In this document: positions 4,187-31,112 of the stretch, one piece after another | Layout of the letters: each line of letters begins with the position of its first letter | Numbering within the stretch: position 1 is the first letter of the stretch | Source: a virus | Direction: 5' to 3' (one strand) | Length of the DNA stretch: 33,499 bases | Virus record (IMG/VR): IMGVR_UViG_3300006870_000041 | Span: 1-33,499 of that record | Program-made: the position numbers and the translations under genes | Notes under the pieces: model-generated | Databases searched by the model: none | Seen by the model: the letters and a program-made list of their open reading frames with translations, nothing else | Told to the model about the DNA's origin: nothing

Positions 4187-4216
4187 GATATTAAAACTCT
4201 GCGCCTAGAGTATTAA

Positions 4217-6964: not shown

Positions 6965-6999
6965 TTTCAGTCTCCTTTAGAAAAAATCTCAGTATTAAA

Positions 7000-7028: not shown

Positions 7029-7051
7029 GAAAATATTTCATAGTGATCAAT

Positions 7052-8793: not shown

Positions 8794-8855
8794 ATCAAAT
8801 AACACTTGAAGCAATTATTGTAGCAGTAATAATATTTTTATTCATAATCAAATAA
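8787..8855 (+). CDS. 22-residue single-span membrane microprotein
   Basis: A 22-residue peptide with about 13 hydrophobic residues in a row near its end (AIIVAVIIFLFII) and a final Lys. Its ATG lies inside the end of the preceding microprotein and the stop is followed at once by the ribosome site of the DUF3310 gene. Length and composition fit a one-helix membrane peptide. The ribosome site (GGA) is weak. Confidence 0.4.
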   Translation: MVDQITLEAIIVAVIIFLFIIK

Positions 8856-8866
8856 GGAGACTTAAA

Positions 8867-9654: not shown

Positions 9655-9660
9655 ACTTCT

Positions 9661-9729
9661 ACCTAGTGGATAGATTTTCCTGATCCGTCAATTGAAAGAG
9701 TGAATTAAGTCTCCACTTTTCCACTAGGT
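9661..9729. promoter_or_regulatory. 10-bp inverted repeat before the primase gene
   Basis: ACCTAGTGGA (9661-9670) and its exact complement TCCACTAGGT (9720-9729), 49 bases apart, in the only sizeable gap of this operon. Could be an operator pair or the base of an RNA structure. Confidence 0.45.
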
Positions 9730-9745
9730 TTCTAAGAGACTTTTA

Positions 9746-9793
9746 ATGAGGCTTAAAAACAATATGAAATTAAACCAGGATAAAACACTTTGA
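9746..9793 (+). CDS. 15-codon leader ORF overlapping primase start
   Basis: A 15-residue reading frame with AAGAGA upstream whose TGA overlaps the TTG start of the primase gene (TTGA). It may let ribosomes re-initiate on the rare TTG start; the peptide itself is probably not functional. Confidence 0.3.
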   Translation: MRLKNNMKLNQDKTL

Positions 9794-11730: not shown

Positions 11731-12016
11731 AGGTGTAGCTTCGTTCACTTGTCACGAACGAAAGATAAAAGAGTGTAACGGTTGTAAAGAGGTTTTACCT
11801 TTTAGTCGTTTTTCAATGTCTAGTTGGAAAGGAACACCTAGAAGTTACTGTAACGTTTGTAGAAATAAAATACAGTGGGCGCGAAAAATGGAAAATAAAA
11901 TAGAGCAATTCCCCACGCTTTACGCTCAATGCGATAACGATGATTGCTGTTATATATGGGCGAGAAGTAGAGGAATGATCTGTCCTAAATGCAAGCTGGA
12001 ACATAATGAACAGTAA
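11723..12016 (+). CDS. Double zinc-ribbon small protein
   Basis: 97 residues, overlapping the primase end by eight bases. Cys pairs ECNGC and YCNVC form one zinc site across residues 18-47; a second set, CDNDDCC and CPKC, lies near the end. The first half resembles zinc-finger segments that precede HNH nucleases in phages, but no HNH histidines follow. Probably a nucleic-acid-binding or structural zinc protein; function unknown. Confidence 0.65.
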   Translation: MPKGVASFTCHERKIKECNGCKEVLPFSRFSMSSWKGTPRSYCNVCRNKIQWARKMENKIEQFPTLYAQCDNDDCCYIWARSRGMICPKCKLEHNEQ

Positions 12017-12263
12017 ATACCACAAGACCGTTAAACGTAAATACGATGAAACAATAGTTCACCATGAACAGAACTTTTGCAACTCGAAAGCTTTGTGGGG
12101 GTTTGAATCAACTCTGGATCAAGAGAAGATAACTTGCGTTGGTTGTTTAGCATCTGTCATGTGGCGAAGAAATAAAAAGATAATGGATTACCAAGATTGC
12201 TTGAATAGAGCGAGAGTATTGGTAGAAGCTAAGTTAACTGTTGAACGAGCGAGGATAGAATGA
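12006..12263 (+). CDS. Small protein, unknown
   Basis: 85 residues, starting within the end of the zinc-ribbon gene. Basic N-terminus, one CVGC pair plus a distant Cys, and a long C-terminal helix (DCLNRARVLVEAKLTVERARIE). Its ATG overlap with both neighbours fits an operon gene. No family recognised. Confidence 0.55.
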   Translation: MNSKYHKTVKRKYDETIVHHEQNFCNSKALWGFESTLDQEKITCVGCLASVMWRRNKKIMDYQDCLNRARVLVEAKLTVERARIE

Positions 12264-12448
12264 AAAACACCACTAAAGAAGCGTTGAAAAACATTAAATT
12301 ATCTGACGGTGAAAAAGAGTTTTGTAATACTGTTAGAGATAAAAATAGACTTAACAGGCGACCGACTAAACCAAAGTTTAAAGTTGAAACAAAATTCAAC
12401 GGATCGGTTTACTTGAAAAAGAAAAGATTATTGGAGAGTGAAGGGTGA
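12260..12448 (+). CDS. Small basic protein, unknown
   Basis: 62 residues, ATGA-coupled to the upstream gene, Lys/Arg-rich with a basic centre (KNRLNRRPTKPKFKVETKF). Likely binds nucleic acid or a partner; no family recognised. Confidence 0.5.
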   Translation: MKNTTKEALKNIKLSDGEKEFCNTVRDKNRLNRRPTKPKFKVETKFNGSVYLKKKRLLESEG

Positions 12449-12609
12449 CTGAAAAAGAAATACGCGACATGAAAAAACGTTTGGATTACTTAGAATACAC
12501 TCTTCGTTTCATCAACGATTGGATCGATGAGTCCTATAAAATGTGGGGAAAATGGCCCATGCCCAAAGAGTTGCGGGACAGATTGAAAAAAGCGAAGGCG
12601 AACAATTAA
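12445..12609 (+). CDS. Small helical protein, GTG start, unknown
   Basis: 54 residues from a GTG that overlaps the previous stop (GTGA), with GGAGAGTGAAGG just upstream. The product is a charged amphipathic helix (EIRDMKKRLDYLEYTLRFI) followed by a Trp-rich turn and a basic tail. It ends the plus-strand operon; its stop overlaps the convergent gene's stop on TTAA. Confidence 0.6.
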   Translation: MTEKEIRDMKKRLDYLEYTLRFINDWIDESYKMWGKWPMPKELRDRLKKAKANN

Positions 12610-12863
12610 AGCTCACCTAAGTATTCGCACTTTAATAAGAACTCAGTTCCACCCCACCCTAATCGAGGTGAATTGGAAGTCCATTCCATATAAGGTCTAG
12701 GTAAACCTTGCATTTTGTAAAAAGAATTTAACACTTTGTTGGTACACTTTCTACCGTCCATCACTTTCCAGTAAACACCGTCGTCACTCAATTCAGTAAA
12801 GATTGCAACTAAGTCACCATTAGGTTTTAAATAAACACCGGGTTTAAATATTTTATCGTTCAT
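12606..12863 (-). CDS. Small protein, unknown
   Basis: 85 residues from the ATG at 12863, on a TAATG overlap with the upstream gene; an earlier start at 12884 would overlap more and has no better ribosome site. Beta-rich and aromatic (GVYLKPNGDLVAIFTELSDD, YWKVMDG). Last gene of the minus-strand regulatory operon. No family recognised. Confidence 0.55.
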   Translation of the reverse strand: MNDKIFKPGVYLKPNGDLVAIFTELSDDGVYWKVMDGRKCTNKVLNSFYKMQGLPRPYMEWTSNSPRLGWGGTEFLLKCEYLGEL

Positions 12864-13066
12864 TAATGTTCCGTATTTTTCCAAACTGTTTCGTTTAACT
12901 CGTCAATTCTTATTTCTATATTAATTAACCGTTTTGCCATGAACGCCAAGAGTTCAAGATTTTCTCTTTCGTAAACGGTTAAACCATCGCTAGTAACATT
13001 CTTACGTTGATGGGAAATACGTTCTAAATCTTTATGTATTTTATCTAAGTATGTTATGTCACTCAT
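12863..13066 (-). CDS. Small coiled-coil protein, unknown
   Basis: 67 residues from the ATG at 13066, which overlaps the previous stop (TGATG) and has GGGGGGAG close upstream. Mostly helical with heptad-like hydrophobics (LLAFMAKRLINIEIRIDEL). No family recognised. Confidence 0.55.
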   Translation of the reverse strand: MSDITYLDKIHKDLERISHQRKNVTSDGLTVYERENLELLAFMAKRLINIEIRIDELNETVWKNTEH

Positions 13067-13197
13067 CACTCTCCCCCCTTTATCCTCTTGGCGAGTTGGA
13101 TTGCTCTCTCGTAATCATCACCACCATAGTATTGTTCGTGCGATTGCAGCAATGCTTTTGCAAGCTCGTCGCGTTCTTTTTTCATTTCACAAGTCAT
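13066..13197 (-). CDS. 43-residue helical protein, unknown
   Basis: A short reading frame with GAGGTGAG upstream and overlaps of 11 and 1 bases with its neighbours, filling what would otherwise be a gap in the operon. The product is charged and helical (EMKKERDELAKALLQSHEQ, then YERAIQLAKRIKGGE). It runs from the ATG at 13197 to a TGATG junction. Confidence 0.55.
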   Translation of the reverse strand: MTCEMKKERDELAKALLQSHEQYYGGDDYERAIQLAKRIKGGE

Positions 13198-13417
13198 ACT
13201 CACCTCTTTCTTTTTTCAATAACTGACAAATCTTAAATAGTCTCTTGGACTTTTTACGTACACCAAGTTGCTTAGAACAACCGCATAACAATGGAGTATA
13301 GTCTTCAACTGTGCGACTATATAAAGTACAAACATTTAAAGACTTTCTTTCAAAACGATCCAGTTTGTGAAGAGTGAAAATAAAATTACTAACTAATAAC
13401 ATGTTTAACGGTGTCAT
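13187..13417 (-). CDS. Small basic protein, unknown
   Basis: 76 residues from the ATG at 13417, with AAAGGG eight bases upstream. Hydrophobic N-terminus, a Cys cluster in the middle (CTLYSR...LLCGC) and a strongly basic C-terminal third (VRKKSKRLFKICQLLKKERG). No family recognised. Confidence 0.45.
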   Translation of the reverse strand: MTPLNMLLVSNFIFTLHKLDRFERKSLNVCTLYSRTVEDYTPLLCGCSKQLGVRKKSKRLFKICQLLKKERGEYDL

Positions 13418-13435
13418 AACCAATACCCTTTAAGT

Positions 13436-13684
13436 TTAAAACCAACTCACAATTACGTTCCACCATTCTATGGCCGTTGCGCCTACGAAAGGGATAACTA
13501 CACTGTAGAGAAACAGTATGAAAAATACTAAAAACACTGTGCCGACTATAAAAGTTATGGCGAAATCAACTATATTCTTAACGTCTTCGTTATCTTTATA
13601 CTTATAATAAATAAAACCTAGTATCGCCAAGAGTGCAGATATTCCTCCAACAATTGATGACCCTACTATAAATTCTAAACTCAT
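13436..13684 (-). CDS. Integral membrane protein, two or three spans
   Basis: 82 residues. A Gly-rich hydrophobic helix at 5-27 (VGSSIVGGISALLAILGFIYY), a short polar loop (KYKDNEDVKN), then one or two more hydrophobic helices up to residue 72 and an aromatic end. AAGAGG precedes the ATG. Unusual in a regulatory operon; it could be a superinfection-exclusion or envelope protein, which is inference. Confidence 0.6.
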   Translation of the reverse strand: MSLEFIVGSSIVGGISALLAILGFIYYKYKDNEDVKNIVDFAITFIVGTVFLVFFILFLYSVVIPFVGATAIEWWNVIVSWF

Positions 13685-13736
13685 TATTTTAACCTCTTAC
13701 GATAACCTTACTACTAATTCCTCTATATCTAGGCAT

Positions 13737-13991
13737 CTACAACCCCACCTTTATCTTTAACTCTTTACCAGGCACAATTGCCTTAACTATCTTGGTGAAC
13801 GTATCAATTGAAGGAGTCGCTTCACCATACTCATAACCGCTATATCCTGTTGAACTTTTGTAACCTACTAAACTAGCCACCGCCCTATGACTAAGACCTG
13901 CACTCTTTCTTAATTCACTTAGGAAGTCGGGAGAGATACTTGTAAAGTTTCTACCTGTAACGCTCACCTTACCTGCTGTTACTGTTATCAT
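13737..13991 (-). CDS. XRE-type helix-turn-helix regulator
   Basis: 84 residues, starting directly after the ParB-like stop with GAGG seven bases upstream. Residues 27-75 are a Cro/CI-type HTH: LSELRKSAGLSHRAVASLVGY, then a recognition-helix region (SGYEYGEATPSIDTFTKIVKAI). A short beta strand precedes it. Likely a transcriptional repressor of phage promoters; candidate targets are the palindromes at 15995-16403. Confidence 0.75.
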   Translation of the reverse strand: MITVTAGKVSVTGRNFTSISPDFLSELRKSAGLSHRAVASLVGYKSSTGYSGYEYGEATPSIDTFTKIVKAIVPGKELKIKVGL

Positions 13992-14807
13992 TTAAAACCT
14001 CGGTCGAGTAAAATGATCTTTACTCTCACCATAAATCAACTGCATTAGATATTCTGTTATACCACCTTCAATGTCTTCTTTTTCCGATACGTAAAGAGGA
14101 ACCCTAACAGTGGTGTAACCAATACTTTTAGAACCATTTTTAAACTGTCTAAAAGATGCACCTTTTCTTATGGTTCCGGCCATTGCTCTAACAGTTGTAG
14201 AGTTATACTTTCCATTTAGAACGCCGTCTAAAATTTCTTGTCCTTCTGACCTACTAATAAGGTTAGATTTTTGAAGATTCGCAACGGTTGTAGCGGTACT
14301 TAAACCAACTAAACCTTTTTTTCTAACGGCATTGGTATCGGTGGTAATCTTCTCAGTGTATTTTTGAGGGAAAGCACCAAAAGCATTGAGTAACGATTCT
14401 ACTCTTGCTTCAGTAATACCTAAACGAACGGAACACTCTTTTTTCGTTAGGAAATGTTTAGTAATAAGAAGTTTGAGAAGTCTACCTTGTTCAAAAGCTG
14501 AAACATCTTTACGTTGCAAGTTTTCAGACATATTAAAAACCAAGAGGTCGGCCATATCCTTAATATTGTCGTTAATAACAGCGTCAACCGATGCTTCACC
14601 TAAATTTTTAACGGCCCTAAAACGACGATTGCCCGCCACCAATACATAAGGTTTTTTACCTCTACCATTAAAAGCTTTAGTCACAACAACTGGCTGAATC
14701 AAACCGGATTCTTTAATTGACTCCATAAGCTCGGAACAATCTTCTTCATTAGCTCTTGAGTTTTCAATAAGAGCTACATCACTTAACTTTACTTTTTTCA
14801 ATAACAT
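13992..14807 (-). CDS. ParB/Spo0J-like protein
   Basis: 271 residues with AAGGAGA upstream. Residues 5-100 form a ParB/sulfiredoxin-like N-domain: ESGLIQPVVV, AGNRRFRAV (the GxRR CTP-binding motif), then NMSENLQRKDVSAFEQG. Residues 115-150 look like the ParB HTH (TKKECSVRLGITEARVESLL). The C-terminal part is not recognised. No ParA ATPase lies beside it. Phage ParB-like proteins may act in plasmid-like maintenance or as DNA-binding regulators; its place in a regulator operon fits the latter. Confidence 0.85.
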   Translation of the reverse strand: MLLKKVKLSDVALIENSRANEEDCSELMESIKESGLIQPVVVTKAFNGRGKKPYVLVAGNRRFRAVKNLGEASVDAVINDNIKDMADLLVFNMSENLQRKDVSAFEQGRLLKLLITKHFLTKKECSVRLGITEARVESLLNAFGAFPQKYTEKITTDTNAVRKKGLVGLSTATTVANLQKSNLISRSEGQEILDGVLNGKYNSTTVRAMAGTIRKGASFRQFKNGSKSIGYTTVRVPLYVSEKEDIEGGITEYLMQLIYGESKDHFTRPRF

Positions 14808-14827
14808 TTTAGTCTCCTTAGTTATTA

Positions 14828-15097
14828 TTAAAACTCTCCCATAAGCGAAGGCCTACGTTCAAACATTCTCAATAGTCGCGAGTTTGTTTCATTAAAGGGG
14901 CGGGAACCTGTGATCCAGAGTCTAACCGCTTGGGGCGATACACCTAATAATTTTGCAAATTGGTTAATGTCGAGGGAGAAGCGTTTCATAAACGAATGTA
15001 CTTCATCACCTGTTAAAGGGGTGTGGGTGTTCTTTGTTAAAGGGGTGTTATCACCTCTTAAAGGGGTGTTATCAATCCTTGGTAGTGTGTTAGTCAT
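14828..15097 (-). CDS. HTH regulator with repeated TPL N-terminus
   Basis: 89 residues, ATGA-coupled to the upstream gene with AAGGAG in front. Residues 1-32 hold three imperfect repeats (DNTPL, DNTPL, HTPL). Residues 38-80 are a Cro/XRE-like HTH: INQFAKLLGVSPQAVRLWITG, then a hydrophobic helix. The repeated DNA (TTAAAGGGGTGT on plus) might also be a protein-binding site inside the gene. Likely a transcriptional regulator. Confidence 0.7.
   Translation of the reverse strand: MTNTLPRIDNTPLRGDNTPLTKNTHTPLTGDEVHSFMKRFSLDINQFAKLLGVSPQAVRLWITGSRPFNETNSRLLRMFERRPSLMGEF
15013..15069 (+). repeat. Three TTAAAGGGGTGT repeats inside HTH gene
   Basis: Exact 12-mers at 15013-15024, 15037-15048 and 15058-15069, spaced 24 and 21 bases, so in frame with the gene. 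Related TAAAGGGGCGGG 12-mers occur at 14893 and 16042. Confidence 0.7.
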
Positions 15098-15345
15098 AAT
15101 TCAACTCCTTCCCTACTAGGGACCAATTCGTGAGAGATCGTAAATTTATTTTTAAAGTCGTCTAATTCTCTTACGAATATCACATGCGGGTCGTAGTATT
15201 TAACGTAAGATACCGCTTCAACCCATTCACCTGTTACAGGTTCTTTAAGTTTAACGAAACCAAGGATATTATAAACTTCCATGTCGTGCGACACATGTGC
15301 GCTACCTTTATAGTGGTAATTAGCACTCGTTACTAAATCGTTCAT
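15094..15345 (-). CDS. Small beta-rich protein, DUF1653-like
   Basis: 83 residues with GGAGA before the ATG. YHYKGSAHVSHDMEVYNILGFVK, then SYVKYYD.HVIFVRELDDFKNKF, has the order of DUF1653 (Y-H-x-K-G, a valine-rich strand, an aromatic strand, then a W/F-V-R-x-x-x-x-F end). Function of that family is unknown. First gene after the promoter at 15389-15416. Confidence 0.5.
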   Translation of the reverse strand: MNDLVTSANYHYKGSAHVSHDMEVYNILGFVKLKEPVTGEWVEAVSYVKYYDPHVIFVRELDDFKNKFTISHELVPSREGVEL

Positions 15346-15388
15346 TTGTTTTAAGTCTCCAAAAGAATAAGTCTCAATGTTTAGAAAG

Positions 15389-15416
15389 CATATAACCCCA
15401 AATCAGGGTACGTCAA
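15389..15416 (-). promoter_or_regulatory. Promoter of the minus regulatory operon
   Basis: On the minus strand TTGACG (15416-15411), 16-bp spacer, TATATG (15394-15389), 44 bases before the ATG at 15345. The spacer holds ACCC-TGATTT-GGGGT, a short inverted repeat that could be an operator. Confidence 0.55.
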
Positions 15417-15419
15417 TAA

Positions 15420-15896
15420 TTAATTTTCAAATTCTTTTTTTAATTTTTCGTACTGTTTACGACGTTTCTCTTTATCGTCAGGTAACATGTCACTTTTAAG
15501 TTTGTAGCAAAGATAACCAGGAGCTTCTTCAGGCCTATTGGCCAATTTAGGTTTTTTATAAGTGGCGATAACACCAGATTTAATGAGGTCTTCTAAAGCT
15601 TTTAAAAGATCGGCCTTATCATCGATACCTATATCTTGGCGAGACAAACATAATAAATCTTTACCTAAGTGACCTTTAGCAGTTTTAACATAATTGATGA
15701 TCTTTGCTTGATCTGACTCATTTGATTTAGCTGATACAACACCAAGGTTGTAGTCGAAAGGGTTCTTATTCGACATTTCATTATCTAAAGCTATGGCCAA
15801 TAAACGACTCTTAGGTATTTTCTTGTTTTCAGCATACTTATAGAGTTCTTTATAGTGGTGTTCAGAAACGTAAGTCGTTAGCTTTCTAAATGGCAT
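15420..15896 (-). CDS. Possible ribbon-helix-helix/winged DNA-binding protein
   Basis: 158 residues from the ATG at 15896, preceded by AAGGAGATAAAACCC; a longer frame to 15956 lacks such a site. The start FRKLTTYVSEHHYKELYKYAENKKIPKSRLLAIALDNEM has the beta-strand and two-helix order of RHH proteins. The C-terminal half (DKADLLKALEDLIKSGVIATYKK) reads as a winged helix, then a basic coiled tail. It is the gene nearest the palindromic operator at 15995, so it may be autoregulated, which is inference. Confidence 0.6.
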   Translation of the reverse strand: MPFRKLTTYVSEHHYKELYKYAENKKIPKSRLLAIALDNEMSNKNPFDYNLGVVSAKSNESDQAKIINYVKTAKGHLGKDLLCLSRQDIGIDDKADLLKALEDLIKSGVIATYKKPKLANRPEEAPGYLCYKLKSDMLPDDKEKRRKQYEKLKKEFEN

Positions 15897-15975
15897 GGGT
15901 TTTATCTCCTTTTTAAAATTTCCCCAACCGTACACCGTTAGTAAATTGAAAGTCAAATGACGAAAACAGAGTGTG

Positions 15976-15981
15976 ATAATA
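15976..15981 (-). promoter_or_regulatory. Candidate -10 box of the minus gene at 15896
   Basis: TATTAT on the minus strand, with the palindrome at 15995-16007 covering where a -35 box would lie. No good -35 hexamer is visible. Confidence 0.3.
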
Positions 15982-15993
15982 TGCGATAAGATA

Positions 15994-16008
15994 TAGAACT
16001 ATGTTCTA
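15994..16008. promoter_or_regulatory. Operator 1: TAGAAC-TAT-GTTCTA palindrome
   Basis: Perfect 6-bp arms around a 3-bp centre, positioned over the -35 region of the leftward promoter. Core GAACNNNGTTC is shared with three sites to the right. Confidence 0.75.
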
Positions 16009-16058
16009 AACTAATGAATAAATAAAAATGGTTTATGTATGTAAAGGGGCGGGCGTGG

Positions 16059-16166
16059 TTTTTGGAAAGTGCCTAATCACCCTTTTGTTAGGGAGTAAAT
16101 ATAGAAAACAAATGTTGCACTATATTTGCTTCCTAATTTACACCCTTGGGTGGGACTCTCCAAAAA
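16059..16166 (+). ncRNA. Large nested hairpin, possible structured RNA
   Basis: Outer arms 16059-16073 and 16152-16166 pair at 13 of 15 positions. A 5-bp CACCC/GGGTG pairing at 16078-16082 and 16148-16152 lies within (one base shared with the outer stem). The inner arms 16088-16104 and 16120-16136 pair over all 17 positions if two G-U pairs are allowed, around a 15-base loop. The G-U pairs favour an RNA role over cruciform DNA. The G-rich AAGGGGCGGGCGTGG lies just upstream. It sits inside the divergent control region where no credible gene is seen. Confidence 0.55.
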
Positions 16167-16292
16167 TATCATATAAATTACACTATGTAAAACTCTTTAA
16201 AATCATACACTTACAGTTATCCTTGGTTACGTTAAATAATGCAACGCTAATAAATAGTAAACGGAGCGTTATAAATAACTAATGTAAAAATT

Positions 16293-16403
16293 AGAACAGA
16301 GTTCTTCAAGGTGTAGAAGGGTAATATAAACGTAAAAGTAAACGAAGAACAGTGTTCCAAATGTTAGGGGGTGGAGAGTTGATAGTATTAAAGAACAGTG
16401 TTC
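16293..16403. promoter_or_regulatory. Operators 2-4: GAACNNNGTTC cluster
   Basis: GAAC-AGA-GTTC at 16294-16304, GAAC-AGT-GTTC at 16347-16357 and 16393-16403, spaced 53 and 46 bases. The last lies where the -35 box of the rightward promoter would be (TATAAC at 16423-16428). Each is an 11-bp palindrome with 4-bp arms. The stretch 16009-16468 otherwise holds the nested hairpin and no convincing coding sequence. Confidence 0.75.
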
Positions 16404-16468
16404 CAAAATTAATCTATTGTCATATAACGTGGGAGTGGATAGTAATGTTAAGTAAACGGAGAGTGATA

Positions 16469-16726
16469 ATGACGATATTTGATGCATTAAAGAGTTTAAC
16501 AGAACGTGAGATATTCTTTTGTTTTCAAAGCAGGGCGGGTTATAAGTTCTACAATCTGGCCGTTGCTGATCCAACCGGAAAAGTTCACCACTTCCATTCT
16601 GATAACCTTGGCCATATAAAAGATGAGTTAGATTTGATGTGGGACTTTGATAAACCCGCTGTAGTTAAAACCACCGCAAGAGGTAGTAAAAAGTTACCCA
16701 TTCCAGCGGGATTACCTGTACCATAA
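16469..16726 (+). CDS. Small protein, unknown
   Basis: 85 residues from the ATG at 16469, with GGAG about eight bases upstream; the frame is open further upstream but runs through the operators. Mixed alpha/beta: TIFDALKSLTEREIFFCF, then FYNLAVADPTGKVHHFHSD, an acidic helix and a Lys/Pro-rich end. First gene of the rightward operon that leads to the HNH gene. No family recognised. Confidence 0.55.
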   Translation: MTIFDALKSLTEREIFFCFQSRAGYKFYNLAVADPTGKVHHFHSDNLGHIKDELDLMWDFDKPAVVKTTARGSKKLPIPAGLPVP

Positions 16727-16729
16727 GAT

Positions 16730-17131
16730 ATGCCTAAAAAACCAAAGCAATTTAAACCCAATCGACACGTATCGAATAAGAAGTATAGAAGACCAGGACA
16801 ACTCTCGGCTAGAGAGAAAGGTTACGATTCAAATTGGGATAAGTATCGCTTCAGGTTCCTACATCACAATCCAAAGTGTTATGTGTGTGGTGCTAAATCA
16901 ACGGTGGTGGATCATTACGTAGCGTGGAAAGTAGATAAGGAAAAGTATTTTTGGAATGAGCAAAACTTTTGTCCTATGTGTCAGTATTGTCACAACTACG
17001 TGACTGGAAAGTTTGATAAACATAAAGTACCGTTATGTGCAGAGAAGAGTGAGTGGATAAAAGAACAAAGAGAAAAGTTTAATATTAACATCAAGGTAAA
17101 AATTGTTAAGTTACCAAAGGAAGTTAAGTAA
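16730..17131 (+). CDS. HNH endonuclease, packaging-associated (gp74-like)
   Basis: 133 residues. A basic N-terminus, RGYDS.W-type segment (REKGYDSNWDKYRFRFL), CYVCG zinc pair at about 50-53, VVDHYVAW with the catalytic D-H, then NEQNFCPMCQYCHNYVTGK with the second zinc pair and last His. This is the pattern of HK97 gp74-like HNH proteins, which nick DNA and stimulate terminase in cos phages. Here it lies about 6 kb before the terminase genes, separated by the accessory cassette. Confidence 0.85.
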   Translation: MPKKPKQFKPNRHVSNKKYRRPGQLSAREKGYDSNWDKYRFRFLHHNPKCYVCGAKSTVVDHYVAWKVDKEKYFWNEQNFCPMCQYCHNYVTGKFDKHKVPLCAEKSEWIKEQREKFNINIKVKIVKLPKEVK

Positions 17132-17132
17132 T

Positions 17133-17354
17133 ATGAGTGATCTATTTAAAAAGTTTGAAGAGTTATTAAAGAAGTACAACCTAACCAAGCAATACGCAGA
17201 TAATGTTAAACAGTATCACAACAAAGCACCTGAAGAGTTTTGTAAAAGTGAACCTAACAATGGATGGGTGATGAGAGCGTTCAATTGGGAGAAGGTTACT
17301 CCAAACGCTAAGGTTTGGAAGAGAGTACATAAAGAGTGGGTAGGAATGTTGTAG
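17133..17354 (+). CDS. Small helical protein, unknown
   Basis: 73 residues from the ATG at 17133 (a longer frame begins inside the HNH gene). Coiled N-terminal helix (LFKKFEELLKKYNL), then aromatic and basic turns (NWEKVTPNAKVWKRVHKEW). Its stop overlaps the next gene's GTG. No family recognised. Confidence 0.55.
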   Translation: MSDLFKKFEELLKKYNLTKQYADNVKQYHNKAPEEFCKSEPNNGWVMRAFNWEKVTPNAKVWKRVHKEWVGML

Positions 17355-17686
17355 TGGATTTAACACTCACTCGTCCTTGTGATAATTGTCCATTTAGAAC
17401 AGACGTAACACCTTATTTGAGTTACGAAAGAGCTAATGAGATTGCGTTAGCTTTAGACTGTGATGAATCTTTCAGTTGTCACAAGACTTCAACATGTCAG
17501 GGAAAGAGTAACATGGACAAAGGTGTGAAACATTGTGCTGGAGCTATGATAATGATGGAGAAGATGAACAGACCTAATCAATGGATGAGAATATGTGAAC
17601 GTATAGGTCATTACGACAGGAGAAAATTAGATATGAACTCTCCTGTTTACCATGACTTCGATCATTTCGTAGATGCTCATGAGTAA
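17354..17686 (+). CDS. Cys/His cluster protein, DUF6283-like
   Basis: 110 residues from a GTG that overlaps the previous stop (TAGTG), with AGGA upstream; a GTG at 17336 is an alternative. PCDNCPFR, then FSCHKTSTCQ, then KHCAGAMIMM follows the CxxCPFR...CH.T...CAG pattern of the DUF6283-type phage proteins. The conserved Cys and His suggest a bound metal or iron-sulfur cluster. Function is not established. Confidence 0.65.
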   Translation: MDLTLTRPCDNCPFRTDVTPYLSYERANEIALALDCDESFSCHKTSTCQGKSNMDKGVKHCAGAMIMMEKMNRPNQWMRICERIGHYDRRKLDMNSPVYHDFDHFVDAHE

Positions 17687-17707
17687 AAGGGTAGGCCCCT
17701 TCTTTTC
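17687..17707 (+). terminator. Possible terminator after the DUF6283-like gene
   Basis: AAGGG and CCCTT can form a 5-bp hairpin with a short loop, followed by CTTTTC. Weak stem and short U-tract. Confidence 0.3.
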
Positions 17708-17771
17708 TAGAGACTGAAAAAAAATTTAAGGGGGCGGTCACTATTTGGATCGTCCACCAAGGAGAGACTTA

Positions 17772-17993
17772 ATGGAAGAAGATGTAAAGATTAAAGAAGG
17801 TATCTGGTTTCATCCAGAAAAGGGAACCGCAATAGTGTGGTTTAATTACGGTAAAAATAGATGGGTTATTCACCGTGGTAAATACTGGTTTTGTAAATAT
17901 GCAAATGAATGGTTCCCATCAACTCAAGAATTTTTCATGAAGTCATACATAAATAAAGTAATGAAAGATTACGAATTTATTTGTGAATATTAA
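17772..17993 (+). CDS. Small aromatic-rich protein, unknown
   Basis: 73 residues from the ATG at 17772 with AAGGAGAGA upstream; a longer frame lacks this. Beta-rich with many Trp/Tyr/Phe (GIWFHPEKGTAIVWFNYGKN, HRGKYWFCKYANEWFP). Last gene before the long non-coding region. No family recognised. Confidence 0.6.
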   Translation: MEEDVKIKEGIWFHPEKGTAIVWFNYGKNRWVIHRGKYWFCKYANEWFPSTQEFFMKSYINKVMKDYEFICEY

Positions 17994-18010
17994 ACCAATC
18001 CCTTGGTGAA

Positions 18011-18160
18011 TGTTTAATAAATATAATTTATAAAATACCAAAAAATTTTTAAAATATTTTTGTAGTTTTTTTAAAATTTTATAAAATTATTTTTTTTTAA
18101 TTTAATATTTTTAAAAAATGTTTCTAAATTTTTAAATTTTTTTAAATGATAATTTAATTA
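18011..18160. other. Extremely AT-rich block, candidate DNA unwinding element
   Basis: I count 8 G/C bases in these 150 (about 95% AT), mostly short A and T runs. It is followed within 60 bases by the first of a family of dyad repeats. An easily melted block next to repeated protein sites is the usual plan of a replication origin. No gene is seen in 17994-18799. Confidence 0.5.
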
Positions 18161-18221: not shown

Positions 18222-18469
18222 TTAAGTGGTTGATTTTACTAGGGTTGTAAGTGCGCGAAATCACGTAGAAAATCAAAAGTTGTAAGTGCGCGAAATCACT
18301 AGGTTTTTCCAAAATTTCCAAAAATTCAAAAAACTGAAAAATGTAAGTGCCTGAAAATAGATGAAAATTACTAAATTTTGAAAACTATTTGTAAAGAAAA
18401 CTTGATAATTCAAAGCTTTGAAACGATGGAAAAGACTAAATGAATAGTTAAGTACCTGAAAATAGGTAC
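18222..18469. repeat. Left set of 22-bp dyad repeats (five copies)
   Basis: Copies at 18222, 18247, 18282, 18343 and 18448, each 22 bp: left half-site GTAAGTR (some begin TTAAGT), an 8-bp core of the CCTGAAAT type, and a right half-site like YACGTAC. Copy two carries a G in the left arm and the matching C in the right arm, as expected for a protein that reads both halves. Spacing is irregular (25, 35, 61, 105). The same motif recurs beyond the cassette at 21924-22196. Confidence 0.75.
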
Positions 18470-18544
18470 AAATAACTAAATCATTTTTGAATTCTCTAAA
18501 ATATTTCAAGTCATAAACCTTTATGAATCGTTTTCGGCCTTTCT

Positions 18545-18591
18545 AAGCGTTTTTAAAAAAATACCTATGTGTTAACTCACATAAAACGCTT
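18545..18591. other. Nested inverted repeat
   Basis: AAGCGTTTT (18545-18553) pairs with AAAACGCTT (18583-18591); inside lies TATGTG-TTAACT-CACATA. Could be a structured leader or protein-binding site in the non-coding region. Confidence 0.45.
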
Positions 18592-18606
18592 AAAACGTTT
18601 CTATTC

Positions 18607-18666
18607 TATCGGTGCGCACGTTCGACGATAACTGTTTGAAATTATGTCAATAGTTTATCGGTGCGC
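18607..18666 (+). repeat. Two TATCGGTGCGC direct repeats
   Basis: Exact 11-mers at 18607-18617 and 18656-18666; the first runs into GTGCGCAC, a perfect 8-bp palindrome. They sit 70-130 bases upstream of the cassette promoter. Confidence 0.55.
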
Positions 18667-18734
18667 TTTGAGCATAATCAATGAGGATAAAAGCGTGAAA
18701 ATATTACATTTTTTAAATTTTTTTCCGAAAAGTC

Positions 18735-18763
18735 TTGTGTCGAACGTCGAACGATAGTAATAT
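18735..18763 (+). promoter_or_regulatory. Candidate promoter/operator of the accessory cassette
   Basis: TTGTGT (18735-18740), 17-bp spacer, TAATAT (18758-18763), about 36 bases before the first cassette ATG. TCGAACG is tandemly repeated (18740-18753) in the spacer, and its inverse CGTTCGA occurs at 18619, suggesting a repressor or activator site. Confidence 0.5.
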
Positions 18764-18799
18764 AAAGGTAGAAATTAAACATTAATAAGGAAAAACAAA

Positions 18800-19090
18800 A
18801 TGAAAGAAGAAACAAAAGAAAAACTATATAAAAAAACTTTTGAACATTTTAAGAATGACTTTGATTTAGAAAATGATGATAGCGGTTTCAAATTTTCGTT
18901 TGCCTTCGCTTTACGTGAAATATGCAATTTGTATCATGACGGCATGTTTTCAGAATTATATATTCTTGGAAGTGCTTTAAGTATTGAATGGCGTTTTGAT
19001 TCACCTTATGAAACGTATGACGAAAACGATATAGAACAAAAAGAATGTTACGAGTTTTTTTTAGATGAATTCAATTTAAGGGATATTTAA
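18800..19090 (+). CDS. Acidic accessory protein, unknown
   Basis: 96 residues with AAGGA before the ATG. Acidic and aromatic, helical (FKFSFAFALREICNLYHDGMFSELYILGSALSIEW). First gene of an AT-rich, same-strand set of eight. Its A-rich coding sequence is unlike the head genes. No family recognised. Confidence 0.6.
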   Translation: MKEETKEKLYKKTFEHFKNDFDLENDDSGFKFSFAFALREICNLYHDGMFSELYILGSALSIEWRFDSPYETYDENDIEQKECYEFFLDEFNLRDI

Positions 19091-19092
19091 AA

Positions 19093-19479
19093 ATGAAAAA
19101 TGAATATTATATGGCTGATTATTATCATTGTAATAATTGCGACAATTACGCAGACGATATCATAAGTGAAAAAGAAAAAGTAATATGTGAAAATTGTGAT
19201 GAAACAATGATAGCCGTTTTTAGTGAATTATTATTATCAGACTTCCATGGTATTTATATTCCTAAAGTTTTTGTAGAAAGTTTTGATTTAGAAAAATGGA
19301 ATTTAAAACTTGATAAAGAAGAAAAAGAAATTTTAAATAATCCCGAAAACGAATCATATTGGGATTCTTGGAATGATGTTTTAAACAATGCTGAATTAAT
19401 CGATAAAGATAAAAATAAATATTTTTTGCATCAAGATGGTGACTTATTCGCAAAATGTTACGTTGAATTTAAAGGATAA
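19093..19479 (+). CDS. Zinc-ribbon accessory protein of a common phage/plasmid family
   Basis: 128 residues. CNNC and CENC (about residues 13-36) form an N-terminal zinc ribbon. The rest holds IYIPKVFVESFD and YWDSWNDVLNNAELIDKDK, then FLHQDGDLFA, a pattern I associate with small phage and plasmid accessory proteins (x-W-D-x-W-D-x-V-L-N-N-A, then Y-Q-D-G-D-L-W). Their function is not established. It is the only zinc protein of the cassette. Confidence 0.65.
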   Translation: MKNEYYMADYYHCNNCDNYADDIISEKEKVICENCDETMIAVFSELLLSDFHGIYIPKVFVESFDLEKWNLKLDKEEKEILNNPENESYWDSWNDVLNNAELIDKDKNKYFLHQDGDLFAKCYVEFKG

Positions 19480-19483
19480 AAAA

Positions 19484-19813
19484 ATGAATAGTATGACACA
19501 TAAAAAAATGGTCCCTGATATTCAAGTATTTTTTACGAATAACAAGAATAAAACGTGGTTTTTAGCAATTACCACCGAATATCCAAAATTTAAATTTGTT
19601 AAAATGAATCGAACGTCTAAAGGTTATAGTTTCAATGATGTTTTAAAAATTAATAATGTTGTCGCTACTATATCAATGGGCTATCACTTGGATTATATGT
19701 CAAGTGAAGAACTACGCGCAATAGATGAATATTTAGAAGAAAATTATTTAGCAAAAAATATTTATAATGAGGCGGTTAAAAATACTTTTACGGCCGACGA
19801 TATACCATTTTAA
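19484..19813 (+). CDS. Accessory protein, unknown
   Basis: 109 residues from the ATG at 19484 with AAAGGAT upstream; the longer frame starts within the preceding gene. Alpha/beta (IQVFFTNNKNKTWFLAITTE, then YHLDYMSSEELRAIDEYLEE). Ends in an ADDIPF tail like the acidic tip of SSB proteins (DDDIPF), so it may dock on the same partners; that link is inference. Confidence 0.6.
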   Translation: MNSMTHKKMVPDIQVFFTNNKNKTWFLAITTEYPKFKFVKMNRTSKGYSFNDVLKINNVVATISMGYHLDYMSSEELRAIDEYLEENYLAKNIYNEAVKNTFTADDIPF

Positions 19814-19830
19814 AAAAGGATAGGTGAATT

Positions 19831-19986
19831 ATGAAAAAATATAGAATCGATTATGCTTTTCAAAAAATTTATATTTTCGATCATAATCAAAACGCTTATT
19901 TATTTTTTTGTACTTTTCAAAGTATCGGAGCAAAAAAAAGCAATAGAGAAAAAACAATTTTAAAATTATTAGAAAAGGATAAATAA
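19831..19986 (+). CDS. 51-residue basic protein, unknown
   Basis: A short frame that fills the gap between its neighbours, with AAAGGATAGGTGA upstream. Aromatic-rich first half (YAFQKIYIFDHNQNAYLFFCTF), basic helical second half. No family recognised. Confidence 0.6.
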   Translation: MKKYRIDYAFQKIYIFDHNQNAYLFFCTFQSIGAKKSNREKTILKLLEKDK

Positions 19987-19989
19987 ATT

Positions 19990-20598
19990 ATGAGACAAGA
20001 AACAATAATAAAAACATATTTAAAATTTAATGAATTGAATGACGAACAAAAAGAAAAAGTGATCGAAAATAATAGAGATATAAATACCGATTATGAATGG
20101 TGGCAATTTACTAAAGAAGACTTTCACGCGCAATTAGATATTCTTGGCTTTTACGATGTTGAAAGTTATTTCAGTGGTTTCTGGTCACAAGGCGATGGCG
20201 CATCTTTCACCGGAAAATTTAGCTATCCAGAAAATGAAAAAGAAATAGAAACAATTTTAAAAAACTTAATAGATAATTATAATTATAAAGACGATAAGTT
20301 AGACTATGCTAAAAATATTCTACGCAATGCCATGATAGAAAAAAAGAAAGATATAGATGACGATTATTATCCTTGCGAATTAGAAATTTATTCACGTTCC
20401 AATTACTGCCATTCTAATACAATGCAATTATTAAATAATGACAATGATTGTTTTTTAGAAAATTGTCGATGGCTTGCCGATGAATATTATAAAACTTTAG
20501 ACGATGAATATTATTATTTAGTAAGTGATGAGGCGATAACAGAAACATTAATAATTAATGACTATGAATTTGATATAGATACTTTAAAAATAGGATGA
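19990..20598 (+). CDS. Widespread phage accessory protein (YFSGFWSQGDGA motif)
   Basis: 202 residues, the largest of the cassette. EWWQFTKEDFHAQLDILGF, YFSGFWSQGDGASFTG, and the C-terminal LADEYYKTLDDEYYYLVSDE are hallmarks of a widespread phage protein sometimes labelled antitoxin of a toxin-antitoxin stability system. No partner toxin is apparent and the function is not established. Acidic and aromatic; it may mimic DNA, which is speculation. Confidence 0.75.
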   Translation: MRQETIIKTYLKFNELNDEQKEKVIENNRDINTDYEWWQFTKEDFHAQLDILGFYDVESYFSGFWSQGDGASFTGKFSYPENEKEIETILKNLIDNYNYKDDKLDYAKNILRNAMIEKKKDIDDDYYPCELEIYSRSNYCHSNTMQLLNNDNDCFLENCRWLADEYYKTLDDEYYYLVSDEAITETLIINDYEFDIDTLKIG

Positions 20599-20604
20599 AT
20601 AAAA

Positions 20605-20895
20605 ATGACTTTAGAAATAAAAACAAATAATCAATTTAGAGAAATTATTTACTGGTATGATTTAACAGAAAAAGAAAAAGATGAATTAAAAGATAATTAC
20701 GACACAATAGAGGAAAGTAGTTTTTTTAGATATAAAAATCAAGTTTATGATTTAAACGACTTTATGAGGCTAGAAAAAAATTCTCTCTTTCCCGATTCTT
20801 GGCATGGTTATTCAAACGATAGTTTTTTTTCAGGTATTTTAATTGAACTAAGTAATTGTGGTGATGGTGTAAAGGTAGGTTTTTATGCCTGTTAA
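20605..20895 (+). CDS. Phage/plasmid accessory protein (FFRYKxxVYDLxDFMR)
   Basis: 96 residues. FFRYKNQVYDLNDFMRLEK, then FPDSWHGYSNDSFFSGILIE, then GDGVKVGFY matches a small family often seen in phage and plasmid accessory regions with the preceding gene's family. Overlaps the next gene by 11 bases. Function unknown. Confidence 0.7.
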   Translation: MTLEIKTNNQFREIIYWYDLTEKEKDELKDNYDTIEESSFFRYKNQVYDLNDFMRLEKNSLFPDSWHGYSNDSFFSGILIELSNCGDGVKVGFYAC

Positions 20896-21142
20896 ATTTG
20901 ATGAATATAGCGCGACAATATGTAAGCATTATATTACTGCGATTGAATACTATGATATTTCAGGTTTAACCGGTAGTGAAATTAAAAATATCAATGAATT
21001 TTTAGATCAATGGCCTAACGCTTGTTTTGAGTATAGTGAGGAAAGTGATTTTTGCCGTGATGATATTACAGGTTTAATGGCCGACTGTATAGAGGTAAAA
21101 ATATTTATACCAAAAAAGGAAAATTTAAAACTTATTAAATAG
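20885..21142 (+). CDS. Small acidic accessory protein
   Basis: 85 residues, with GGTAGG upstream inside the previous gene. SGLTGSEIKNINEFLDQWPN, then FEYSEESDFCRDDITGLMAD, then a VKIFIPKK strand resembles a small accessory family (DUF6926-like) that travels with the two genes upstream. Function unknown. Confidence 0.6.
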   Translation: MPVKFDEYSATICKHYITAIEYYDISGLTGSEIKNINEFLDQWPNACFEYSEESDFCRDDITGLMADCIEVKIFIPKKENLKLIK

Positions 21143-21153
21143 GAAAATGAAAA

Positions 21154-21342
21154 ATGAATAATGAAAAAACAGAAAGAATCGCAGCGCGAATTTTACCCGT
21201 AAACAAAAGGAAAATAAGGCGATATTTTAAAACTTATACTTTTAGAGATATTTTGGAAGCGGTAATTTCACTATTTGAAAATGATAAAACTTTTAAAAAT
21301 AAATTTATTAAAACATTAAAAGAATTGAAAGAGGAAAGTTAA
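21154..21342 (+). CDS. Small basic helical protein, unknown
   Basis: 62 residues, Lys/Arg-rich throughout and helical (ERIAARILPVNKRKIRRYF, then a helix to the end). Last gene of the cassette and directly followed by its terminator. May bind nucleic acid; no family recognised. Confidence 0.55.
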   Translation: MNNEKTERIAARILPVNKRKIRRYFKTYTFRDILEAVISLFENDKTFKNKFIKTLKELKEES

Positions 21343-21371
21343 AAAAGCTTTTTAAAATTCTCGAATAATTT

Positions 21372-21396
21372 AGGCCCTCATATTGGGCCTTTTTTA
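21372..21396 (+). terminator. Terminator of the accessory cassette
   Basis: AGGCCC (21372-21377) and GGGCCT (21385-21390) around a 7-base loop, followed by TTTTTT with one A shortly after. It lies between convergent genes and could work in both directions. Confidence 0.75.
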
Positions 21397-21621
21397 TTTT
21401 AAAGTAATATTCAAAAATTCTATATTTTCAATAATTGCTTTACTTATCTTTTCGCTAATTGATTCTATATTCCTTTTATTGAATCCTATTTTCCCTAATT
21501 CCTTGGCTATTGTGTCGCCTTCTTTATATTCAATTTCATATACGTTTTTTCTATGATGAATTATTATCAATTTCTTATTGTCTAGATGCTCAATACTGAC
21601 TTTGATTAATTTACGTTTCAT
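21394..21621 (-). CDS. Small protein convergent to the cassette, unknown
   Basis: 75 residues. Alpha/beta: KVSIEHLDNKKLIIIHHR, YEIEYKEGD, then a helix (IESISEKISKAIIENIEF). Its ribosome site is weak (AGGG, 10 bases away). Transcription into it would begin beside the minisatellite at 21683-21836. No family recognised. Confidence 0.5.
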   Translation of the reverse strand: MKRKLIKVSIEHLDNKKLIIIHHRKNVYEIEYKEGDTIAKELGKIGFNKRNIESISEKISKAIIENIEFLNITLK

Positions 21622-21682: not shown

Positions 21683-21836
21683 GCCTCTATATAGTGCCTC
21701 TATATAGTGCCTCTATTGTGGCCTCTATATAGTGCCTCTATATAGTGCCTCTATATAGTGCCTCTATATAGTGCCTCTATATAGTGCCTCTATTGTGGCC
21801 TCTATATAGTGCCTCTATATAGTGCCTCTATGTATG
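21683..21836. repeat. 13-bp minisatellite GCCTCTATATAGT (12 units)
   Basis: Tandem units: two full, one 12-bp variant (GCCTCTATTGTG), five full, another variant at 21786, two full, and a final GCCTCTATGTATG. The core CTATATAG is self-complementary. Lies just upstream of the minus-strand gene and before the 42-bp array. No gene is seen between 21622 and 22410. Confidence 0.85.
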
Positions 21837-21923: not shown

Positions 21924-22196
21924 ATAAGTACCTGAAATTACGTAAAAAAATAAAAAGAAAATGTTTTAAATACCCGATATTACGTACAATTATGTCATTA
22001 TGGTAAGCTAAGTACCTGAAATTACGTACAATTATGTCATTATGGTAAGCTAAGTACCTGAAATTACGTACAATTATGTCATTATGGTAAGCTAAGTACC
22101 TGAAATTACGTTAAAAATATAAAATTCTGCTCGTAAGTGCTTGAAATTACATACTACAAGGTAAACGTTCCATCGTAAGTCATTGATTTTACGTAG
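21924..22196. repeat. Right dyad-repeat array, seven 22-bp copies phased at 42 bp
   Basis: Copies start at 21924, 21966, 22008, 22050, 22092, 22133 and 22175: steps of 42, 42, 42, 42, 41, 42. Each 22-mer has half-sites GTAAGTA-like and TACGTAC-like around an 8-bp core of the CCTGAAAT type, the same motif as at 18222-18469. The 20-bp spacers following copies two, three and four are identical, so part of the array grew by recent tandem duplication; other spacers differ. Phasing near four helical turns would place bound proteins on one face of DNA. Confidence 0.85.
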
Positions 22197-22260
22197 AAAA
22201 AAGAATGTCAAGAAAAATTTATAAAAAAATCAAAAAAAAAGTCAATAAAATCAAGCACTT

Positions 22261-22379
22261 AGCAGGGGGAGGTCGTGGGCTACCGCGTTAAGGGGCTGGA
22301 ACGCCGGGTTAGCAAAGCATAGCCGAGAGGTGGTTTCATTCTGAAAAACCCTTTGTCATAGTTTACGGAACGTGGAACG
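22261..22379 (+). other. GC-rich island, candidate cos region
   Basis: A GC-rich stretch (AGCAGGGGGAGG... to AGCCGAGAGG) in otherwise AT-rich DNA, just before the small terminase gene, where cos sites usually lie. It can fold (GCGTT/AACGC and GGCTA/TAGCC). GGAACG occurs at 22298, 22367 and 22374 and could be terminase-binding repeats. No tRNA-like TpsiC arm was found. Confidence 0.4.
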
Positions 22380-22410
22380 CGAGTTAACCTATTGTAAAAA
22401 GGTGTATGTA

Positions 22411-22755
22411 TTGAAGAAGCCAAAAATGCCTTCAGGTAAAGGTCCAGTTTTTAAAAAACAATGGAAAATTTTAGTTGATATAATCTACACCAAAGAAAAC
22501 GTTCATGATAATTTATTCGAGCAATTATCAATACTTTGTGACTTATATCAAGAATATCACGATCTTTCTAAGTTTATCAAAGAGAACGGTTACTCTTATG
22601 AAAGTGAAACTCGAAACGGTAATCAAGTAAAAAAATACCCTGAAGTAGATCAACGAAACAAAGTTCTATCGGATATTAGAATGTTTTCTAAAATGTTGGG
22701 TATAACTGCTGAAGGTAAGTACGTACCTGAAGATGATAATAATGAGTGGACATAA
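22411..22755 (+). CDS. terS: Small terminase subunit, P27 family
   Basis: About 114 residues from the TTG at 22411, which has AAGGTG six bases upstream; GTG at 22372 and ATG at 22426 are alternatives with weaker sites. VHDNLFEQLSILCDLYQEY, then RNGNQVKKYPEVDQ, then IRMFSKMLGITAEG is typical of P27-like small terminases. It binds the packaging site and brings DNA to the large subunit. It is followed by a homing-type HNH gene and then the large subunit, with overlaps. Confidence 0.8.
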   Translation: MKKPKMPSGKGPVFKKQWKILVDIIYTKENVHDNLFEQLSILCDLYQEYHDLSKFIKENGYSYESETRNGNQVKKYPEVDQRNKVLSDIRMFSKMLGITAEGKYVPEDDNNEWT

Positions 22756-29363: not shown

Positions 29364-31112
29364 GTGAAACTGAATAAAACAGTTATCTTGGCGTTAATCG
29401 ACGCTATCATTAACGATAAAATTGATTCTGGGATACTCAGTAACAAGAGAGGTCCGAGAGGTTTTCGCGGTAAAGACGGTGAAGACTTTGACTTCGATGA
29501 ACATAAAGCTCAAATTCTACAATTCGTTAAACAATCTGTTATTGAACAAAAAGCAGAGTTCAGACTAACAGAAGATGAAATACGAGAAATCAAATTAAAA
29601 TTTAACGAACTTTCCCTAGATGATATTGAATCTCTTAAAGGTAATCGTGGACCTAGAGGTTATCCAGGTAAAGACGGTGAAGACTTTGACTTCGATGAAC
29701 ATAAAGAAAAGATATTTAATCAACTTATAAATCTCATCGATCAAAACATTGATGAATTAAAAGTTAAATATTCTGATTTATCTGATGAAGATAGAGAATC
29801 CTTGCGCGGTCAACGAGGTTATCGCGGTCAAAAAGGTAAACCGGGTAAAGACGGTCAACAAGGCAAGTCGGCTTACGATGTTTGGTTAGAGTCTAATGAA
29901 GGCACTGAAGAAGATTTTTTAAATTCTCTTAAAGGTGAGAAGGGTGAATCGGGTGAGCAAGGTAATAGAGGTCTTAGAGGTTTCAAAGGTCTTAAAGGTG
30001 AATCCGGTGAAAATGGTCTTTCAGCTTACGAGATATGGTCACAAAACAATGAAGGTACTAAAGAAGATTTTTTAAATTCTCTTAAAGGTGAGAAGGGTGA
30101 AAAAGGCGATCAAGGTGAACAAGGTTATCGAGGTCAAAAAGGTCGTCGAGGTGTTACAGGTGAGAAGGGTGATCAAGGCGAGCGTGGTGTACGCGGTCCT
30201 TTAGGTCTTCCAGGTATTCAAGGCAGAAATGGACGAGATGGTGAAGACGGTAGAGATGGTCAAGACGGACAAGACGCGCCAGTTATCGACGAGATTAAAC
30301 TAAAGAAAAAAACTAATAATAAATTTGCTATAGAATTTAGTTTCAGCGATGGATCAATTATTGAAACTAATAGTATCGCTATGGCCTCTGTCACGACCAT
30401 ATATAATTCGTTCGCTGCTACAGGTGGTGGCGGTGGTGGATTATCTTCAATACCTATCTTATTAGATGGTACACTTATAGGTAACGCTGAATCTATTAAC
30501 TTTCTCGACTCAACTGTTGAAGTTGATGGAACTGACCCAAATCAAATAAACGTAACACCTTTAACGAAAGTGACACTCTTTGAAGAGGGTGTTGAGGTTG
30601 GTGATTGTTTTAACAAGATAGACTTTTGCGGTGATAACGTAACAGTTGCTTCAAGTACAGTCATAGCCGATTGGCCAGATTTATCTTCCGTTACAACTAT
30701 GGCAGGTTTCGGTGACGAGACTAGAGCTAAAGTTTTATTTAGTAACGATGCTCAAAGATTATCTAAAACGTTTACAGCAGGTGAAGATATTACTGCCTTT
30801 CAATATGTAAGATTAGGTGTATCCCAGGAGGTATTTGTCGCTACTAATAATGCAACTTTTGAAGACGCTAAAGTTAGAGGACTTGCTTTGAACGCAGGAC
30901 TTACAGGTGAAAATATATCAGTATTATTATTTGGTTTAGATGATGCCAACTCTTTTAATTTCACTATTAACAATCCGTTCTTTTTAGGAGTTAACGGAGC
31001 AGCAATTCAAAACCCGCCAGTTACGGTCGGTGAGTTTGTCGTTGAGTTGGGTGAATCTCTTGGTAACGGTGTAGTCTTTAATGATATTCAGACACCACAG
31101 GAGATTGTATAA
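29364..31112 (+). CDS. Collagen-like fibre protein
   Basis: 582 residues from a GTG with TAGG upstream. Gly-X-Y blocks near residues 32, 95 and 148-310 (GEKGEKGDQGEQGYRGQKG and similar) form collagen triple helices. They are split by two near-identical DFDFDEHK segments and by two SAYxxWxxNxGTxEDFLNSLKG linkers, known from other collagen-like phage proteins. A Gly-rich hinge (near 355) precedes a beta-rich C-terminal head (about 360-582). Likely a trimeric head or tail fibre that projects from the particle. Confidence 0.85.
   Translation: MKLNKTVILALIDAIINDKIDSGILSNKRGPRGFRGKDGEDFDFDEHKAQILQFVKQSVIEQKAEFRLTEDEIREIKLKFNELSLDDIESLKGNRGPRGYPGKDGEDFDFDEHKEKIFNQLINLIDQNIDELKVKYSDLSDEDRESLRGQRGYRGQKGKPGKDGQQGKSAYDVWLESNEGTEEDFLNSLKGEKGESGEQGNRGLRGFKGLKGESGENGLSAYEIWSQNNEGTKEDFLNSLKGEKGEKGDQGEQGYRGQKGRRGVTGEKGDQGERGVRGPLGLPGIQGRNGRDGEDGRDGQDGQDAPVIDEIKLKKKTNNKFAIEFSFSDGSIIETNSIAMASVTTIYNSFAATGGGGGGLSSIPILLDGTLIGNAESINFLDSTVEVDGTDPNQINVTPLTKVTLFEEGVEVGDCFNKIDFCGDNVTVASSTVIADWPDLSSVTTMAGFGDETRAKVLFSNDAQRLSKTFTAGEDITAFQYVRLGVSQEVFVATNNATFEDAKVRGLALNAGLTGENISVLLFGLDDANSFNFTINNPFFLGVNGAAIQNPPVTVGEFVVELGESLGNGVVFNDIQTPQEIV

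Follow-up and report, generated by a model that had tools for sequence, protein, structure and literature searches.

The window, i.e. the whole 33,499-nucleotide stretch of viral DNA analysed here, carries a regular series of short repeats at 21925-22200, which raises the question of what kind of protein these repeats attract and what its binding would serve. On balance, we consider it more likely than not that the array is a group of sites, amplified and in part diverged, at which a dimeric transcription regulator binds, and that it belongs to an upstream element widespread among phages of Proteobacteria. The original prediction had preferred a replication, partition or filament-nucleating array, a preference which is not supported, as canonical sites of the same kind cluster before sigma-70 promoters in many unrelated phages.

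Repeat copies in the window

The array consists of seven 20-bp units on the same strand (Table 1), separated by steps of 42, 42, 42, 42, 41 and 42 bp, and both the number and the positions of the units agree with what had been predicted. The three identical spacers mentioned there are those of copies 2-4, while the spacers of copies 1, 2, 5, 6 and 7 resemble each other no more than shuffled sequence does. Despite these unrelated spacers the 20-mers are identical at 14-19 of 20 bases, so the claim that the motif is kept where the spacers are not holds as well. Since the 42-bp period survives unrelated spacers, the unit length may be constrained in the window phage or may reflect an old duplication. 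The motif expression has 11 matches in the window, whereas its 200 dinucleotide shuffles averaged 0.055 matches and yielded one at most, and an origin by chance is excluded.

Copies 1-5 represent an amplified variant that has diverged, copy 7 is canonical and copy 6 falls between the two. With the class model described below, copies 1-6 score about 1-9 bits (8.7 at most), having retained TAAGT and GA but not the weak half of the site. The dyad that had been predicted for the repeats is a property of the class logo and is weak in the array copies themselves, in which 6 of 10 pairs of TAAGTACCTG/AAATTACGTA match. The interior copies carry another weak 20-bp symmetry, TAAGTA-N8-TACGTA, and due to this different symmetry a changed binder is possible. 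Querying phage records with the array region returned no match, and Rfam gave no convincing one.

The five copies predicted further to the left are present, with steps of 25, 35, 61 and 105 bp and therefore without the 42-bp period. The set of 12 copies was incomplete, however, as two canonical inverted copies had been missed, one to the right of the array and the other upstream of the leftward regulator genes. The canonical members of the window according to the class model, namely 18223 (+), 22176 (+), 22261 (-) and 16213 (-), all lie at 20-23 bits, the median of the training sites being 24.4 bits, and the best position besides the known copies scores 10.2 bits.

Table 1 Coordinates of the repeat copies and associated features in the window
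Feature	Position	Strand	Sequence or remarks
ParB-like protein, candidate phage-encoded binder	13992..14807	-	ParB_N; PDB relatives Noc/ParB
Promoter-like TTTACA-N17-TATTTT, extended TGA	16163..16191	-	read by eye; offset class taken from other phages
Canonical copy upstream of leftward regulator genes	16189..16213	-	TAAGTGTATGATTTTAAAGAGTTTT; 20.1 bits (class model)
Left-cluster copy 1, canonical	18223..18247	+	23.4 bits (class model)
Left-cluster variant copy	18248..18267	+	TAAGTGCGCGAAATCACGTA
Left-cluster variant copy	18283..18302	+	TAAGTGCGCGAAATCACTAG
Left-cluster variant copy	18344..18363	+	TAAGTGCCTGAAAATAGATG
Left-cluster variant copy	18449..18468	+	TAAGTACCTGAAAATAGGTA
Array copy 1	21925..21944	+	TAAGTACCTGAAATTACGTA; divergent variant, followed by an A-rich spacer
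Array copy 2	21967..21986	+	TAAATACCCGATATTACGTA
Array copy 3	22009..22028	+	TAAGTACCTGAAATTACGTA
Array copy 4	22051..22070	+	same as copy 3, spacer included
Array copy 5	22093..22112	+	TAAGTACCTGAAATTACGTT
Array copy 6	22134..22153	+	TAAGTGCTTGAAATTACATA; between variant and canonical class; 16.8 bits in one scoring, 8.7 with the class model
Array copy 7	22176..22200	+	canonical TAAGTCATTGATTTTAC...; 27.4 bits in one scoring, 20.5 with the class model
Promoter-like TTGACT-N16-TATAAA	22218..22245	-	read from sequence
Inverted canonical copy right of the array	22237..22261	-	TAAGTGCTTGATTTTATTGACTTTT; 22.0 bits (class model)
Putative genome terminus (cos)	22302..22311		from assembly ends
Terminase small subunit ORF (Terminase_4), first gene right of the array	22372..22755	+	

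Between the left cluster and the array lies an A/T-rich (~26% G+C) accessory cassette of small genes (18500-21350), which matches PHROGs 5162, 1845 and 21544, none of them with a function. Homologues of its last gene and of the antisense gene 21394-21621 are found at the same place in the related contig G004. Between this 75-aa antisense gene and the array, a 13-bp unit GCCTCTATATAGT is repeated in tandem ~11.6 times, some of the repeats being 12-bp variants GCCTCTATTGTG (21683-21831). At 18600-18780, repeated TATCGGTGCGC and TCGAACG/ACGTTCGACG elements flank a possible promoter TTGTGT-N17-TAATAT before the cassette and are perhaps a separate operator.

A class of 25-bp dyads in phages of Proteobacteria

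A search for two adjacent copies returned another contig of the window phage (L004) and five loci on other contigs, which have the form TAAGTNNTTGATTTTAC. The single-copy scan with CTAAGTNNTTGATTTTACNNG extended the list to at least 120 viral stretches from phages of many kinds, the sites being mostly intergenic, and the tandem scan with three half-sites TAAGTNNNTGA gave at least 119 viral stretches compared to about one expected by chance, according to a rough estimate. From the tandem matches 91 distinct arrays were parsed, a few of which are simple repeats. Their spacings peak at 25-28, 36-38, 42 and 51-52 bp, the longest array at 28 bp containing 12 copies, and in other phages the element is single, paired or arrayed. 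Given these other spacings and the unphased left cluster, the four-turn period is a local feature and not a rule of the class, contrary to the general placement every four turns that had been suggested.

The logo was built from 204 non-redundant array sites seeded on TAAGT and TGA only and represents a 25-bp imperfect dyad with a strong half TAAGTNNTTGA, a 3-bp centre and a weak inverted half TNAANNANTT. The latter matches at the dyad offset alone (4.53 of 9 positions, with a mean of 2.46 at shifted offsets), and some phages possess perfect 25-bp palindromes. Such a dyad suits a symmetric dimer.

Almost all of the named carriers are phages of Proteobacteria, their hosts including Stenotrophomonas, Vibrio, Klebsiella, Aeromonas, Pelagibacter and the Roseobacter group. 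When 264 Gb of bacterial genomes were searched with a stricter long consensus, eight matches were obtained. Each of them belongs to a member of the Proteobacteria or Desulfobacterota, and four of the eight directly follow tRNA genes. Proteobacterial chromosomes (L148-L155, L354-L373) contain a few canonical sites each, for instance 11 in Bradyrhizobium compared to 0 in the control, several of which immediately follow a tRNA end or a partial tRNA, the way att sites do. Naming a host factor from these att-like sites was attempted and dropped, the sites being too mixed.

Phasing to promoters and the repeats of phage DLP6

Promoters were scanned downstream of 587 distinct sites, the window phage being left out; the criteria were relaxed and the sequences are partly related. 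Downstream of them lie 120 sigma-70 promoters, while positions drawn at random within these loci would lead one to expect 22. Counted from the first T of the site, the -35 box begins at +20-22, +30-33 or +41-42 and almost never in between, the +30-33 class alone having 35 members compared to ~0.3 expected. Offsets stepping by one helical turn are the signature of a regulator that needs to face RNA polymerase. Helical phasing, which had been predicted for the repeats, is thereby found between the site and the -35 box in other phages, and not as a four-turn rule between the sites. The arrangement is similar to that of CRP class I activator sites, where a dimer site is also located upstream of the -35 box at one-turn steps, but the class has a different sequence and forms tandem arrays. 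A recurrent layout is site-25-site-37-site-promoter, and several of the downstream promoters have the form TTTACTT...TATAAT, which we take to be associated with T4 early promoters. The phased layout shows no enrichment across 399 host genomes (2 matches compared to 7 in the control), so the layout itself is a phage usage.

In the window, the -35 box of the promoter-like pair next to the 16213 site starts 22 bp past the first base of the site, matching the +20-22 class of other phages, and the pair would drive the leftward regulators. The pair at 22218..22245 reads left through the array toward the 75-aa gene, with an offset of 16, which is outside the phased classes. No good sigma-70 promoter was found at a phased distance to the right of the array.

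The Stenotrophomonas phage DLP6 contains 25 motif matches compared to 0 in the control, mostly as 25-bp pairs, and one triple with the 25/37 spacing, the recurrent layout described above, immediately precedes TTTACT/TATAAT. In 2017, a motif finder had predicted 25 'phage promoters' in DLP6, most of them paired and preceding gene clusters (PMC5349666). These appear to be the same repeats as the class sites, and the core TCAACGACTTA, which is TAAGTCGTTGA reversed, seems to be shared with the window class. The authors took the motif itself for the promoter, whereas here the dyad is located upstream of separate sigma-70 boxes, and the 25-bp spacing in DLP6 differs from the diverged 42-bp array of the window. 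Within the library searched with the motif text, only this paper, which treats the repeats as promoters, and a primer in an ICEclc paper were found. The control sequence is apparently otherwise undescribed, although the original statement that no named system with this layout is known is not supported in view of the apparently identical DLP6 'promoters'.

Candidate binding factors and the packaging end

According to the explanation favoured here, a regulator bound on the RNA polymerase face would assist or condition initiation, and the sites in the window would govern the leftward operon of regulators, the accessory cassette and the region near the packaging end. The simplest history of the array is that a canonical site was duplicated in tandem to give the interior 42-bp units, which then drifted. 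The binding factor is probably encoded by the host, in Proteobacteria, because no DNA-binding protein is common to the carriers and early promoters are active before any phage protein is present. No shared DNA-binding protein was found among the single-site loci, the array loci and four site-bearing phages, although no more than ~15 kb per phage is covered by these loci and an unlinked shared regulator could be missed. As the host chromosomes are without the phased layout, it is solely the absence of a shared phage protein that points to the host. More tentatively, and with somewhat less than even confidence, we suggest that many unrelated proteobacterial phages have converged on one host regulator by placing the 25-bp dyad, alone or in arrays, at exact helical offsets before early promoters, and that in the window phage the site was tandemly amplified at 42 bp and diverged beside the packaging end. 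If the class is what it seems, phages of very different Proteobacteria would have a cis-regulatory code in common, a specific conserved host protein would be predicted to be used or answered to right after infection, and a sequence rule would be available for early promoters in uncultured marine phages.

Among the other explanations, all of them weaker than control by a transcription regulator, is that the sites are bound by host IHF and that the array is a string of phased bends near the packaging end or a promoter. The reverse complement of the canonical form, AAATCAANNACTTA, fits the IHF consensus WATCARNNNNTTR (PMC8421141), perfectly so at 18223, 22176 and 22261 (-); most array copies are one mismatch off, 18248 and 18283 have three mismatches, and near-matches seldom alter the IHF core positions. 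A T-run ~10 bp from the core resembles the A-tract of strong IHF sites (PMC8421141), the carriers are phages of Proteobacteria, and some of the genomic copies lie immediately behind tRNA ends, in the manner of att sites. However, IHF covers ~35 bp per bound site (PMC8421141), to which the many class arrays with a 25-28 bp spacing are ill-suited, the GT/AC within the free N4 of the IHF consensus is highly conserved in the class, and the unit is a 25-bp dyad, in some phages a perfect palindrome, whereas IHF sites are asymmetric. IHF was given up as the preferred answer on the strength of the dyad logo and the 25-28 bp arrays, and we regard it as unlikely.

A phage-encoded dimer, for example the ParB-like protein, might instead bind the array as a spreading or loop-forming centre with a layout like that of the sopC centromere of the F plasmid, which has 12 repeats of 43 bp with an inverted repeat. 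The period is nearly equal, there is one dyad per unit, the protein has a ParB_N and HTH architecture with Noc/ParB structural relatives, the array copies have acquired a different symmetry, and the relatives G003 and G004 possess neither the ParB-like protein nor the sites, although their contigs break where the array would sit. On the other hand, no ParA was recognised by reading or by Pfam in the genome parts and proteins scanned, and the array lies 7 kb from the ParB-like gene, while a ParABS or sopC-like system comprises ParA, ParB and a linked centromere. The sequence is also unrelated to sopC, there is a second, unphased cluster, and the class is located upstream of promoters. Direct comparison with DLP6, G016 and CRP-603, three phages with canonical sites, yielded no homologue of the ParB-like protein, which speaks against the proposal that this protein is the binder; such a partition centre seems rather improbable. 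The winged-helix and 89-aa HTH proteins, proposed in the same place, fare no better, as G003 has homologues of both and no site within 3 mismatches. In addition to the 89-aa HTH protein, this 45-kb contig shares the replication genes and a 178-aa protein with the window phage, but its terminal region is possibly missing. In G004, site matches are at background level at most, and both contigs may lack the array strip.

Iterons of a replication origin, next to an A/T-rich stretch for unwinding (22197-22240), would account for direct repeats beside such a stretch in a phage with its own polymerase and a Prim-Pol/AAA_25 protein. It is very improbable, though, that the array is one: the copies form two clusters 3.5 kb apart, canonical copies elsewhere are found at promoters, G003 has the same replication genes and no recognisable copies, and there is no clear skew change at the array. 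A CRISPR array was rejected, in agreement with the original prediction, since the 20-bp repeats are degenerate, the spacers of copies 2-4 are identical and no cas match was obtained in the proteins scanned.

Overlapping contigs close the genome of the window phage at ~51 kb. It possesses an HK97-type head and packaging block (terminase, portal, capsid and ClpP-like protease), the DNA polymerase and Prim-Pol/AAA_25 genes, and a leftward cluster of small regulators including the ParB-like protein. One contig stops at 22301 and others begin at 22312, 22322, 22322 and ~22345, and this clustering of assembly ends suggests a physical terminus just to the right of the array, ~100-380 bp from it. The array might then be a part of the cos packaging signal bound by the small terminase or a helper protein, as its end is ~100 bp from the putative terminus and Vibrio phage 1271 likewise has a canonical site ahead of terS, flanked by loosely similar sequence. 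This is again very improbable: five copies are 3.5 kb away, most carriers are not cos phages of the window type, and a GGAACG repeat between the terminus and terS, which recurs in relatives, is a better candidate for the terminase signal.

GGAACG is found at 22298, 22367 and 22374 (22298-22379), and its ACGGAACGTGGAACG part recurs upstream of terS in the relatives L012 and L014 as a candidate terminase-binding repeat. The cos-proximal stretch, when queried in phages, gave only weak matches at chance level. The inverted site and the following G-rich stretch (22237-22300) resemble the terS-proximal stretch of Vibrio phage 1271 (L380, ~2030-2110), with a local score of 55 compared to a shuffle maximum of 45. 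As for the rest of the genome, the 47-kb contig G002 is 100% identical to the window over the early region (1-18029) and only ~74-82% identical in the head and packaging genes, with a sharp mosaic boundary, and the region 29364-31112 codes for a structural protein that contains collagen-like triple-helix repeats and an internal duplication of 153 bp.
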